Positions 26,970 through 56,683 of a stretch of DNA of 56,683 nucleotides are shown in pieces. The notes under the pieces were generated by a model. That model saw only the letters and a list, made by a program, of their open reading frames with translations. It did no database searches and was not told the DNA's origin. The position numbers and the translations under genes were made by a program. Source of the DNA: Halothiobacillus sp. (GTDB taxonomy: Bacteria; Pseudomonadota; Gammaproteobacteria; JAAZVP01); assembly GCA_018623495.1 (NCBI GenBank), contig JAAZVP010000013.1:1-56683 (forward strand). The letters are read 5' to 3'. Numbering within the stretch: position 1 is the stretch's first letter; each line of letters starts with the position of its first letter.

Positions 26970-27206
26970 ATGCTGGGCGAACACCACGAGCTGCACCACG
27001 AGTTCCCGGAGCACTACGACCGCATCCACGACCTGAAGATGAACGATGCGCATTTCCGTCGACTCATGGAGGAGTACAACGAGCTGACCCGCGACATCGA
27101 AAACCTGGAGAAGCAGGGCGAGCCGGTCACCGACGAGCACATGGAAGAGCTCAAGAAGAAGCGCCTGAAACTCAAGGACGAACTCGCGCGCATGCTCAAC
27201 GCCTGA
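26970..27206 (+). CDS. YdcH family protein (DUF465)
   Basis: The 78-aa helical protein matches the YdcH/SlyX-like DUF465 family: EFPEHYDRIHDLKMNDAHF at the start, RLMEEYNELTRDIENLE in the middle, and a basic LKKKRLKLKDELARML end forming a coiled hairpin. Function is unknown. A strong ribosome-binding site (GAGAGGAGA) precedes ATG 26970, and a clear intrinsic terminator follows, so it is a single-gene unit. Confidence 0.93.
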   Translation: MLGEHHELHHEFPEHYDRIHDLKMNDAHFRRLMEEYNELTRDIENLEKQGEPVTDEHMEELKKKRLKLKDELARMLNA

Positions 27207-27228
27207 GCCCCGCCGGGTTCCGGTGCGA

Positions 27229-27251
27229 CCCGGCACCCGCCGGGTTTTTTT
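27229..27251 (+). terminator. Intrinsic terminator after ydcH
   Basis: A perfect 6-bp GC stem (CCCGGC at 27229-27234, GCCGGG at 27239-27244) with a 4-base loop is followed by seven T. It lies 22 bp after the ydcH stop. Confidence 0.92.
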
Positions 27252-27574
27252 GGTTCCGGGGGTTGACAGCCGCGGGCTTATTCACAATCCGGGACGGGGT
27301 GGCCCGGGTGTGGGGCGCAGGATGCCGGATAGCCGCAAAAGATCAAGCGCGGCTTCAGGAAACGGGCCCAACTGATTGTATTAAAAGGAAAAAACGGATT
27401 TGGTCAATATTTCACCAATTTGACCAAGGGAATGATCCTGCGCCGTCTGCCGCCCGATGAACCTAAATCCTCCACAGACTTATCCACAGATTCTGTGGAT
27501 AGCCGCGGAGACCCTCCGAGCGCGGGGATCCGGCGCGCGAGACGAGGCTTTCTGATGCACCAACGCGAGTGCCG
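27252..27574 (+). promoter_or_regulatory. AT-rich intergenic region with two inverted repeats, one DnaA-box-like
   Basis: This gene-free stretch lies between the ydcH terminator and the histidine kinase. It is notably AT-richer around 27370-27430 than anything else in the window. It holds an inverted repeat TTGGTCAA (27400-27407) / TTGACCAA (27420-27427). A perfect 21-bp palindrome (27481-27501) has 10-base arms TATCCACAGA / TCTGTGGATA around one T. The palindrome contains TTATCCACA (27480-27488), the consensus DnaA box, and CTATCCACA on the other strand (27502-27494), one mismatch from it. It may control the kinase gene or bind DnaA; no start signal for an unseen gene was found. Confidence 0.6.
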
Positions 27575-29476
27575 ATGAGCGGGCGTGCCGGTCGCGGTCG
27601 GGCCGGGGCCCGGGGGAGCGGGTGGGCGTCGTTGCTGGCGACGATACTCGGGGCCCTGCTGGCCCTCGGCCCGGCGAATGCGGGGGCGGTCTATCCCGTG
27701 CCGGCCGACCCGGGCCCGGCCGGTCTCGCCGGTCATGTCGAACGTTTGGTCGACCCGACCGGGGCGTTGCGACTGGCCGAGGTTCGCGAACGCCGCTTCC
27801 AGCCGATGGAGGCCTTCCACTCCGGCGGCTATGACCGGGACATTCACTGGTACCGGTTCGTCCTGCGGGAGACCGTCCCGGACCGCGAGCTCCTCCTGGC
27901 GTTCGAGCCCCTCTACCTGAACCGAATCGACGTCTACCTGTTGGGCCAAAACGCGCCGGCCTCCGGGGCTCGGCATTACCGGTTCGGTGACCATGCCGGG
28001 GCGGCGGAGCGATTCGGGCACCAGCGGGGGTACGTGCTTCCCCTCGATCTCGATCCCGGCGAGACCGTGGAGCTCTACGTCCGTGTGAGCTCCAACAGCG
28101 CGATGACCTTCAGGGTGCGGGCGTGGAATCAAGCGGACCACGAGCGTTCGACCTCCCTGCAGGAGGTGGCCTACGGGACCTACTTCGGGTTGTTGGCGGG
28201 GCTCGCGCTGGTTTTCTTGCCGCTGGCGGCCCTTTTGCGCCGGCCCGAGTACCTCGCCTTCGCGACCCTGACGCTGGCGCTGCTCACCACCTACCTGGGG
28301 GTTTTCGGCTATGTGCGCCTGCTCTGGCCGGGTGCCGAGGCATGGGTGCCCGACGTGTTCACCGGGGCCGGCACCCTGGGGATCACGCTGGGCGCTTCCC
28401 TGGTCTTCATCACGTTGCTGCGGCTCGCGCGGACCGCGCGCTGGCTCTATCGTGTCCTGCTGATCCAGGCCCTGGTCGCCGCCCTGGGGATTCCCTGGGT
28501 GACGACCCCGGTCTACGGGTATTTCGCGGTCGCCAGCCAGTTCCTGGGCGCGCTGACAGTACCGCTGGCCACGGCACTGGCGGCCCACCAGACCTTCATC
28601 ACCCGGGATTCGTCGCTCGCCTTCTATACCCTCGGTTTCCTGGTGAGCCTGCTGGGGGCCGGCGTCATGGTGCTCACCCTCCAGGGGGTGTTGCCGCTCA
28701 CCGGCTGGAGCCTGCATGCCTATTTCCTGGGCACCGTCCTGCAGATGGCCTTCCTGGCGATGGGCATGGGGATCGAGTGGCTGCGCAGTGTCCGGGCCCA
28801 GGCCACCTACCGGAGCTGGGCCGAGAGCGCGGAGGCGCGTGCCGCGGTGCTGCACAACACCACGCGCTTCCTCTCGCACGAGCTGATGAACCCACTGGCC
28901 GGTGCGCAACGGGCGCTGGAAATGATCCAGCGGCGCCCCGGTGGGATGGCCGAACGTCAGCTGGAGCGAGTGGCAAAGGCCCGCGGGCGCCTGGAAGAAA
29001 TCGAGGAGATCGCCCGGGTGTTTCTCGGCCGCCAATCGCGGGAAGGCGGTGTCTGCCCCCGCGACGTCGTCGAGGATGCCGTGTCGATGTCGAGTGCTCC
29101 CCGGGAGATCACGGTGGAACCGGAGGGGGCCGAAGGGGTGCGGATCCCCGGCTCGAGGACACTGATCACCCACGCCCTCCGCAACCTGATCGACAACGCC
29201 CTGACCCACGGGGGAGGGCACTGCCGTGTCGGGTTCAGCGTGGACCAGGGCTGGGCCCATTTCCTGGTCGAGGACGAGGGACCCGGCATGCCCGAGGCAT
29301 TGATCGAGCGGCTCAACGGGATGGGGGAGGTGAATCTCCCCGGTCGGCGAGGCGGTGTGTCCGGGCTGACGCTGGTGAAGTTCTTCGTGGAGCTGCACAA
29401 GGGGGTGCTCGACGTCGCCAACCGTCGTGATGGCGGGCTCTCCGTGGAGTTGATGTTGCCTGCGGGCCGGCGTTAG
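27575..29476 (+). CDS. 7TM-DISM sensor histidine kinase (orphan)
   Basis: The 633-aa protein has a signal-anchor, a periplasmic 7TMR-DISMED2-type beta domain (RDIHWYRFVL, ELLLAFEPLYLNRIDVYLLG), seven membrane helices from about residue 195 to 400, and a cytoplasmic kinase. The H-box is FLSHELMNPLAGAQ, the N-box NLIDNALTHG and the G1 box VEDEGPGMPEAL. The ATPase end (SGLTLVKFFVELHKG) is short but complete. No response regulator gene lies in the window, so its partner is elsewhere. ATG 27575 is favoured over a GTG 6 bases earlier. The inverted repeats just upstream may regulate it. Confidence 0.88.
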   Translation: MSGRAGRGRAGARGSGWASLLATILGALLALGPANAGAVYPVPADPGPAGLAGHVERLVDPTGALRLAEVRERRFQPMEAFHSGGYDRDIHWYRFVLRETVPDRELLLAFEPLYLNRIDVYLLGQNAPASGARHYRFGDHAGAAERFGHQRGYVLPLDLDPGETVELYVRVSSNSAMTFRVRAWNQADHERSTSLQEVAYGTYFGLLAGLALVFLPLAALLRRPEYLAFATLTLALLTTYLGVFGYVRLLWPGAEAWVPDVFTGAGTLGITLGASLVFITLLRLARTARWLYRVLLIQALVAALGIPWVTTPVYGYFAVASQFLGALTVPLATALAAHQTFITRDSSLAFYTLGFLVSLLGAGVMVLTLQGVLPLTGWSLHAYFLGTVLQMAFLAMGMGIEWLRSVRAQATYRSWAESAEARAAVLHNTTRFLSHELMNPLAGAQRALEMIQRRPGGMAERQLERVAKARGRLEEIEEIARVFLGRQSREGGVCPRDVVEDAVSMSSAPREITVEPEGAEGVRIPGSRTLITHALRNLIDNALTHGGGHCRVGFSVDQGWAHFLVEDEGPGMPEALIERLNGMGEVNLPGRRGGVSGLTLVKFFVELHKGVLDVANRRDGGLSVELMLPAGRR

Positions 29477-30381: not shown

Positions 30382-31653
30382 ATGAAGGGTCAGCGCATCG
30401 TCATCATCGGTGGTGGTTTCGGCGGCATCGCCGCGGCGCGGCGCCTGGAGAAGCGGTTGCCCGACCACGGGTCGATCACGCTGATCAGTGCCGAGAACCA
30501 CATCACCTACAGCCCCCTGCTGGCCGAGGTCGCGGGGGCGGCGGTGTTGCCGGGGCACGCGGTGGCCCCGCTGCGCCAGATGGTGCGGCGTACCCGCGTG
30601 CTGATGGGCGAGGTGGAACAGGTCGACCTCGAGGGCCGGGAGATCCGCTGTTTCGGCGGGGACGGTCCCATCGAATTCGACCAGCTGGTGCTGGCACCGG
30701 GCCGGGCGGCCAACGTCGACCTCCTGCCGGGGATGGCCGAGCATGCGCTGCCGCTCAAGACCCCGGGCGATGCCCTGCATGTCCGCAATCGGCTGATCGG
30801 CAACCTCGAGCGGGCCGAGTTCGAGGATGACGCCGACCGCTGCCACCGGCTGACCACCTTCGCCGTGATCGGCGGCGGCGCCAGTGGGGTCGAGGTGGCC
30901 GGCGCCATCCACGATTTCCTCGACCGTGCGCACCGCTACTACCAGGGGACCTCGGCCGAGGACTTCCGGGTGGTGCTCCTGCACGACGGCCCGCGCATCC
31001 TCCCGGAGCTCTCCGAGGAGCTGGGCCGCTACGCCGAGCGCAAGATGCGGGCCCGGGGCATCGAGATCCGGACCGGTTGCGCGGCCCGCTCGGTGTCGGC
31101 CGCCGGGGTCGAGCTGCCCGATGGCGAGATCCTGCGGGCGGGCACGGTGATCAGCACGGTGGGGACGCGTCCCCACCCGCTGGTCGAGCACATGGCGTTG
31201 CCCATGGAGGGGGGCAAGATCCGCGTCGCGGCGGACCTGGCCGTGCCCGGCCATCCCGGTGTCTGGGCCCTGGGGGACTGCGCCTCGATCCCCAACCGCC
31301 TGGATGGCGACCGCCCCTGTCCGCCCACGGCCCAGTTCGCCGATCGCCAGGGACGCTGGCTGGCGGACAACCTGGTCGCCCGTCTCCGGGGCGGTTCGAC
31401 CCGGCCGTTCGCCTTCGAGCCGCTGGGCCAGCTGGCGAGCATCGGCCATCACACGGCGGTGGCCGAGCTCCACGGCTGGCGCTTCTCGGGTTTCGTCGGC
31501 TGGCTGCTCTGGCGCGGCGTCTATCTCATGAAGATGCCCACGCTGGCGCGCAAGGTACGCGTCTTCGGCGAGTGGAACTGGAACATGCTCTTCCCGCCGG
31601 ACGTGGCCCGGCTGAGCCTGAGGCGCACCGGCGAGCCGGCGGAGCTGGACTGA
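30382..31653 (+). CDS. NDH-2-like NAD(P)/FAD-dependent oxidoreductase
   Basis: The 423-aa flavoprotein has an FAD fold (IVIIGGGFGGIAAARRL) and a second dinucleotide fold (FAVIGGGASGVEVAGAI). The ALGDCASIP motif closes the FAD site. The C-terminus (WLLWRGVYLMKMPTLARKVR, then WNWNMLFPPD) is the membrane-binding end seen in type II NADH:quinone reductases. It most likely oxidises NAD(P)H and reduces quinone without pumping ions; sulfide:quinone reductase is less likely because the essential Cys pattern is missing. A G-rich ribosome-binding site precedes ATG 30382. Confidence 0.88.
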   Translation: MKGQRIVIIGGGFGGIAAARRLEKRLPDHGSITLISAENHITYSPLLAEVAGAAVLPGHAVAPLRQMVRRTRVLMGEVEQVDLEGREIRCFGGDGPIEFDQLVLAPGRAANVDLLPGMAEHALPLKTPGDALHVRNRLIGNLERAEFEDDADRCHRLTTFAVIGGGASGVEVAGAIHDFLDRAHRYYQGTSAEDFRVVLLHDGPRILPELSEELGRYAERKMRARGIEIRTGCAARSVSAAGVELPDGEILRAGTVISTVGTRPHPLVEHMALPMEGGKIRVAADLAVPGHPGVWALGDCASIPNRLDGDRPCPPTAQFADRQGRWLADNLVARLRGGSTRPFAFEPLGQLASIGHHTAVAELHGWRFSGFVGWLLWRGVYLMKMPTLARKVRVFGEWNWNMLFPPDVARLSLRRTGEPAELD

Positions 31654-56357: not shown

Positions 56358-56683
56358 ACCCGGAAGGGCGTGCCTTGAATGGCACGCCGAATGCCCGGTA
56401 AACGCGAGCCAGGAGGGCGGGCCGGGACCACGCATGCACCCCTCACCCCGGCCCTCTCCCCGGCGGGGAGAGGGTGGCGCTCGAGCCGGGACCACGCGCC
56501 GGGGAAGGTTCCCGCCGTCAAGCCGGGACTGCTCCCCCTCACCCCGACACGCTCCCCGGCGGGGAAAGGGTGCTGTTCGGGCCGGAACCCCGCACCGGGG
56601 GAGGTTCCCGCCGCCAGGCCGGGACTGCGCCCCCTCACCCCGACCCGCTCCCCGGCGGGGAGAGGGTGCTGTTCGGGCCGGGA
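56358..56683. repeat. Tandem 96-bp REP-like repeats at right edge
   Basis: After the HIT gene no real gene is seen. CCTCACCCCG begins units at 56441, 56537 and 56633, an exact 96-bp period; the third copy runs off the window. Each unit has a palindrome of the form GCTCCCC/CTCTCCCC-GGC-GGGGAGAG and related GC-rich hairpins (GGTTCCCGCC). Copies differ at scattered positions. The core matches the REP-like element between lexA and imuA. 56358-56440 holds a degenerate lead-in only. Confidence 0.88.

Follow-up and report, generated by a model that had tools for sequence, protein, structure and literature searches.

What is the role of a perfect palindrome built from DnaA-box-like sequences in the intergenic region between a DUF465 gene and a 7TMR-DISM histidine kinase gene? 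The palindrome was noticed in a stretch of 56,683 nucleotides of a Halothiobacillus sp. genome, referred to here as the window, and the initial annotation proposed three roles for it: a DnaA-controlled promoter of the kinase gene, a DnaA titration site or part of an unusual replication origin. DnaA-reactivating sequences (DARS), knowledge of which comes mainly from two loci of E. coli, were not among these roles. A DARS fits the anatomy of the site in detail, and the element of about 130 bp described below is probably a compact DARS-type sequence, which would convert ADP-DnaA to ATP-DnaA.

The palindrome, TATCCACAGA-T-TCTGTGGATA at 27481-27501, is perfect (10+1+10) and consists, as claimed, of two head-to-head 9-mers, TTATCCACA and CTATCCACA. 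Both boxes were found as described, but a third one in tandem with box II had been missed (Table 1). Their identity as DnaA boxes is borne out by their sequence, and they are kept in relatives. The palindrome is one part of a larger conserved element and not the whole of it.

Table 1. Features of the intergenic region and its neighbours (window coordinates).
Feature	Position	Strand	Remarks
Upstream neighbour, DUF465 (YdcH-like) gene	26970..27206	+	Pfam PF04325, 64.5 bits
Terminator-like hairpin after DUF465 gene	27227-27246
Further predicted DnaA box, TTATTCACA	27278..27286	+	fits TTWTNCACA
Putative compact DARS-type module (IHF-like, Fis-like, three-box DnaA core)	27369..27502	+	R1 core 44.5 bits; upstream profile 33.8
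IHF-like site, CAACTGATTGTAT, imperfect	27369..27381	.	position -100; 2 mismatches to YAAnnnnTTGATW, 3 to published TAAnnnnTTGATW by eye
Fis-like site, GGTCAATATTTCACC	27402..27416	.	position -67; 1 mismatch to GnnYAnnnnnTRnnC by eye, 2 to longer form
Conserved CAATTTGAC	27416..27424	.	class consensus CAATTTaAC at -53..-45 (flank profile)
DnaA box III, TCCTCCACA	27468..27476	+	7/9 letters of TTATCCACA; tandem to box II, 3-bp gap
DnaA box II, TTATCCACA	27480..27488	+	sequence match
DnaA box I, CTATCCACA	27494..27502	-	inverted, 5-bp gap to box II; boxes II + I form the palindrome
Downstream neighbour, 7TMR-DISM histidine kinase gene	27575..29476	+	Pfam 7TMR-DISMED2, 7TMR-DISM_7TM, HATPase_c; start 72 bp past core

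A bare palindrome or a count of boxes would be weak evidence. Palindromes with arms of at least 10 and a spacer of at most 1 occurred three times in the window versus 0-1 times in each of eight Markov-1 shuffles, and TTATCCACA with at most one mismatch also occurred three times (shuffle average 1.7). The exact TTATCCACA was present five times in the whole genome, equal to the reversed-letter control; two of these five copies sit in the same three-box element. This element is not due to chance, because it is conserved across the class. The other perfect palindromes of the window, which are GC-rich, lie at 31158-31177 and 56452-56474 (arms of 10 and 11).

The region 27200-27580 was used as a BLASTN query against 56 genomes, this one and 55 others, none of them closer than class. 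Matches were obtained in 22 genomes, this one included; all matches listed for the other 21 lay inside 27462-27512, which corresponds to the three boxes. A second copy was detected in this genome on contig C60. A sequence-only model of the core, R1, was then built from 29 elements, with sites from 22 of 274 genomes. In the comparison with relatives suggested by the initial annotation, the three-box core proved to be kept: R1 matched 239 of the 274 class genomes at E ≤ 0.01 (217 of 252 without the 22 genomes that supplied the model), and reversed-letter R1 matched none of the 274. In a draw from the phylum, 221 of 299 genomes had a match, families outside the class among them. The present genome has five distinct R1 sites, C74:27469 (the window, 44.5 bits), C60:1071 (35.8), C50:52813 (29.5), C72:2729 (24.0) and C100:9962 (23.7).

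The numbers of R1 matches per genome include both strands of the palindrome and are therefore not copy numbers. With 14 and 16 matches at E ≤ 0.01, two genomes of family f42 (G041 and G181) stood far above most genomes, possibly due to expansion of the element. Genomes of family f191, outside the class (e.g. G306, G309 and G369), had 8-9 matches each. Two strong cores on the same strand, 380 bp apart, were seen at G232:C209:4937 and 5317.

For analysis of the flank, 126 non-redundant sites were aligned on the core and numbered with the base preceding TCCACA (27470 in the window) as position 1. Sites with more than two core mismatches and near-identical copies were left out of this profile (138 to 136 to 126); the 138 loci contain duplicates and represent 129 distinct sites, and successive flank analyses had 125, 123 and 119 training rows. 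Position-specific conservation extends about 100 bp upstream of the core and is alike at priA-linked and other sites. Upstream, conservation is strongest at two positions, -67 (G) and -53 (C), which anchor a 15-mer in agreement with the Fis consensus GnnYAnnnnnTRnnC; near -99, a 13-mer agrees with the IHF consensus TAAnnnnTTGATW (consensus strings from excerpts of PMC4245941 and PMC8682772). Exact Fis matches at -67 were found in 45 of 123 sites, compared with a mean of 0.41 per offset, and IHF matches with at most one mismatch in 30 of 123 at -99 and 25 of 123 at -100 (mean 0.57). These are candidate Fis and IHF sites, proposed from the consensus match. An AT-rich inverted repeat read as a repressor operator was set aside once -67..-53 coincided with the Fis consensus.

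The AT-rich stretch beside the palindrome is indeed the most AT-rich of the window, with 68% AT in the 60-mer starting at 27374 and 57% in the runner-up. The annotation rightly joined it to the boxes but overlooked the Fis-like and IHF-like sites inside it; from its sequence, this island would be the IHF/Fis part of the element. Scored against an upstream matrix from which every site of this genome was excluded, the window copy reached 33.8 (shuffles -13.8 ± 7.2; 0 of 5000 reached it) and its register was the best of 88. The score was reached by 3 of 5000 shuffles for the C60 copy, 3 for C72 and 22 for C100, so that four of the five cores have a clear upstream flank; the C50 copy has none (524 of 5000). 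The C60, C72 and C100 modules have a perfect YAAnnnnTTGATW in the same place within 2 bp. Own sites C74, C60, C72 and C100 were included in the matrix of the mismatch-count analysis. An inverted repeat, GGCGCAGGAT / ATCCTGCGCC, was read by eye at 27314-27323 and 27435-27444; its arms, about 110 bp apart, bracket the IHF-like and Fis-like part.

A scan of genome contigs with the core alone gave 61 held-out loci, where an earlier, stricter pattern had given none. They include loci of Thioalkalivibrio denitrificans, Thiohalobacter thiocyanaticus, Nitrosomonas oligotropha, Accumulibacter and a Mariprofundaceae bacterium. Filtering left 51 non-redundant loci with at least 160 bp upstream, and 40 of these showed no upstream similarity to the earlier sites. 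Among these 40, Fis matches with at most one mismatch were present at -67 in 17 (mean 0.47 per offset), and the corresponding IHF matches at -98 to -101 summed to 22 (mean 0.20 per offset). The weight matrix from the earlier sites scored 28 of the 40 above shuffles at p<0.01, and its best register was exactly the expected one in 25. Fourteen further single sites were scored: eight were in register with 0 of 5000 shuffles reaching the score, L241 was in register with 1 of 5000, the fit of L240 and L176 was weak and displaced by one base from the register, and the upstream matrix did not fit L243, L244 and L232. For loci of the f191 type, three of four (L239, L241 and L242) fit the upstream profile in register, unlike L240.

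All five cores of this genome have one orientation and lie 13-96 bp ahead of a start codon. The genes that follow are mutually unrelated, encoding the kinase, an MrpA-type antiporter subunit, a class-V aminotransferase (EgtE-like, yet below the cut-off), a flavodoxin-fold protein and an acyltransferase. The kinase has distant homologues only (25-27% identity), in 4 of 273 other genomes. Upstream, a stretch of 24 bp covering the terminator-like hairpin (27228-27251) is identical to C41:66729-66752. Gene contexts elsewhere were counted from simple ORF calls at loci of at most 55% GC. Of 66 such loci judged, two gave no call; 61 of the remaining 64 were intergenic and three had the core inside an ORF of at least 90 aa. 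Of the 61 classified contexts, 27 were tandem upstream of a gene, 13 divergent and seven convergent; in the other 14 the core points away from the nearest gene start.

One neighbour recurs and is the commonest in relatives. At 46 of 129 distinct sites priA is the next gene downstream and reads in the same direction, with its start nearly always 15-150 bp away, and it lies downstream at 15 of the 61 held-out loci. Thiohalobacter thiocyanaticus (L224), a cultured relative, has such a priA-linked copy. Two members of this protein family were tested and both were PriA by NCBIfam. Within the stretch, hemW was found at 11 and polA at four of the 129 distinct sites. In the present genome (110 contigs, 98.97% complete), the best priA candidate scored 54.9 bits versus a TIGR00595 cut-off of 230, which reflects either loss of the gene or an assembly gap, as draft gaps could hide it. 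A role of priA as required partner was rejected, because this genome has five cores without priA above the family cut-off.

Since its five cores lie so close to start codons, a transcriptional role is the main rival and may coexist with DARS activity. The element would then be a DnaA-dependent switch, aided by IHF and Fis, on the promoter or leader of the next gene, which is the kinase here and often priA in relatives. At its regulated promoters, E. coli DnaA binds tandem boxes separated by 3 bp (excerpt of PMC11317965), and the priA link and the position of the five own cores suit a promoter role as well as a DARS. Against it, the genes behind the own cores are unrelated, the E. coli polA, purH and nrdA sites match the tandem half of the core only, and no sigma-70-like promoter was found at 27200-27620. 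The seven convergent and 14 outward-pointing copies indicate that the element has no general tie to a promoter. Transcriptional switching is judged unlikely to be the function of the element, and a DnaA-controlled kinase promoter, although possible, is not the best account of a site of which 21 in 61 low-GC copies are convergent or point away.

Far less probable is DnaA titration or a datA-like inactivation site. Such a role would agree with the pairing of DnaA boxes with an IHF-like site, as datA likewise pairs DnaA boxes with IHF (excerpt of PMC5742627), and datA does match the tandem half of the core; what it lacks is an inverted third box at the spacing seen here. Little DnaA would be titrated by three or four boxes, and titration by box density was rejected, as exact boxes are not in excess in this genome. 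Titration follows from any DnaA site, and does not account for three boxes in a fixed geometry combined with Fis-like and IHF-like sites at constant distances. The idea of an unusual replication origin has hardly any credibility left. The boxes do adjoin the most AT-rich stretch of the window, and the rpmH-dnaA gap has just two boxes within one mismatch, but that AT-rich part contains the Fis-like and IHF-like sites, whose distances are fixed throughout the class. As the annotation had stated, dnaA is not nearby; it is located on contig C75. In the GC-skew check, cumulative skew rose through the window without a lasting turn, whereas on C75 the skew itself changed sign, plus to minus, near 8.0 kb, at rpmH-dnaA. 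An origin was rejected on this skew and on the number of cores, of which the genome has five, dispersed. The rpmH-dnaA gap (C75:8260-8290, L037), by skew the likely oriC, shows no strongly AT-rich stretch. An RNA element was also discarded: two Rfam matches were far below the gathering score, and a hairpin leaves the tandem box and the upstream flank unexplained.

The DARS reading is favoured by the box geometry, the spread of the core through the class, the dispersed and mostly intergenic copies, the conserved IHF-like and Fis-like positions and a flank that fits E. coli DARS1 in register. Counting against it are the imperfect IHF-like site of the window copy, the C50 copy without a clear flank, a Fis protein at the cut-off only, a layout unlike that of DARS2, and the lack in DARS1 of a Fis-like 15-mer at -67 and of a reported need for IHF or Fis. 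The genome encodes DnaA (contig C75), Hda (268 bits) and IHF-alpha (158 bits), and a Fis-like protein of borderline score (98.8 bits, 99 with neighbours, versus a family cut-off of 99). As Hda is encoded, ADP-DnaA is expected to be made and a recharging route would therefore be useful.

In E. coli, the AAA+ domains of ADP-DnaA on boxes I and II come into head-to-head contact, and ADP is released; at DARS2 this release needs IHF and Fis, at DARS1 it does not (excerpts of PMC8682772, PMC4245941 and PMC5742627). By analogy, boxes III, II and I would be loaded with ADP-DnaA produced by the Hda route after initiation, and the inverted pair I/II would place two AAA+ domains head to head, loosening the ADP. 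Apo-DnaA would then leave, take up ATP and be able to start replication again. The complex may be shaped or timed by Fis at -67 and by a bend that IHF introduces near -99, and the five copies could act jointly on the timing of initiation. The reaction would be that of E. coli, with the putative Fis and IHF sites confined to about 130 bp and their order reversed relative to DARS2.

More tentatively, the compact form (IHF at about -99, Fis at -67 and a three-box core in about 130 bp) may be the ancestral gammaproteobacterial DARS, found also outside the class, multicopy, and very often located at the priA promoter, where a single switch would serve both DnaA recharging and expression of the restart helicase. 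E. coli DARS1 could then be a worn descendant of it and DARS2 a longer derived version, a proposal judged less likely than not. If a compact DARS can be recognised by sequence, DnaA reactivation would become locatable and testable in non-model bacteria, and the nature of the poorly understood accessory region of DARS1 would be suggested. The recurrent priA neighbour would hint at a tie between initiation control and replication restart.

DARS-like sequences are reported for gamma- and beta-proteobacteria related to E. coli, for V. cholerae and for 'many proteobacterial species', and a class-wide form is not described in the excerpts concerned (PMC4245941, PMC8682772, PMC5742627, PMC10380432 and PMC6090056). 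Neither a priA-linked DARS nor this IHF-Fis-core layout turned up in searches of an open-access library, a scope beyond which subscription papers mostly lie.

The core common to E. coli DARS1 and DARS2 comprises three DnaA boxes, spaced alike in both, with box I in the orientation opposite to that of II and III (excerpt of PMC5742627). Box order, orientations and the 3-bp and 5-bp gaps of the window copy are identical to both. The site is also intergenic and away from oriC, with dnaA and the skew change on C75. The tandem boxes III and II, with their 3-bp gap, resemble in addition the double DnaA boxes of the E. coli DnaA regulon, a type with tandem boxes 2-3 bp apart; those of nrdA, polA and purH have the same 3-bp gap (excerpt of PMC11317965). 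R1 leaves the inverted box at 5 bp unmatched in these three. The datA locus, with boxes 2, 3, 4 and 7 in its arrangement, is like the element in combining DnaA boxes with an IHF site and unlike it in its match to R1, which is restricted to the tandem half.

DARS1, intergenic between bioD and uvrB, matched R1 from end to end (model positions 3 to 35, 15.9 bits). Its accessory flank lies, like that of the class profile, on the box III side and in the same register: against an upstream matrix without E. coli or own sites it scored 17.8 (shuffles -13.8 ± 7.3; 0 of 5000; best of 88 registers). It differs from the class element in lacking a Fis-like 15-mer at -67 (9 mismatches) and in its weak IHF-like site, and it is reported to be active without IHF or Fis (excerpt of PMC4245941). 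DARS2, between rppH/ygdT and mutH, shares the core geometry and both gaps and works with IHF and Fis, consensus sites for which occur in the class element. Its upstream sequence did not fit the matrix (2466 of 5000 shuffles reached its score), and its order and spacing of IHF and Fis were not found in the window, where both sites are present: DARS2 spans 455 bp with, from the core outwards, IHF and then a far-out Fis, whereas here Fis (-67) is followed by IHF (about -99) within about 130 bp. E. coli has two DARS and the present genome five cores. The new part, as read from the sequence, is the layout, in which the core and flank register of DARS1 appear joined with putative sites for the partners of DARS2.
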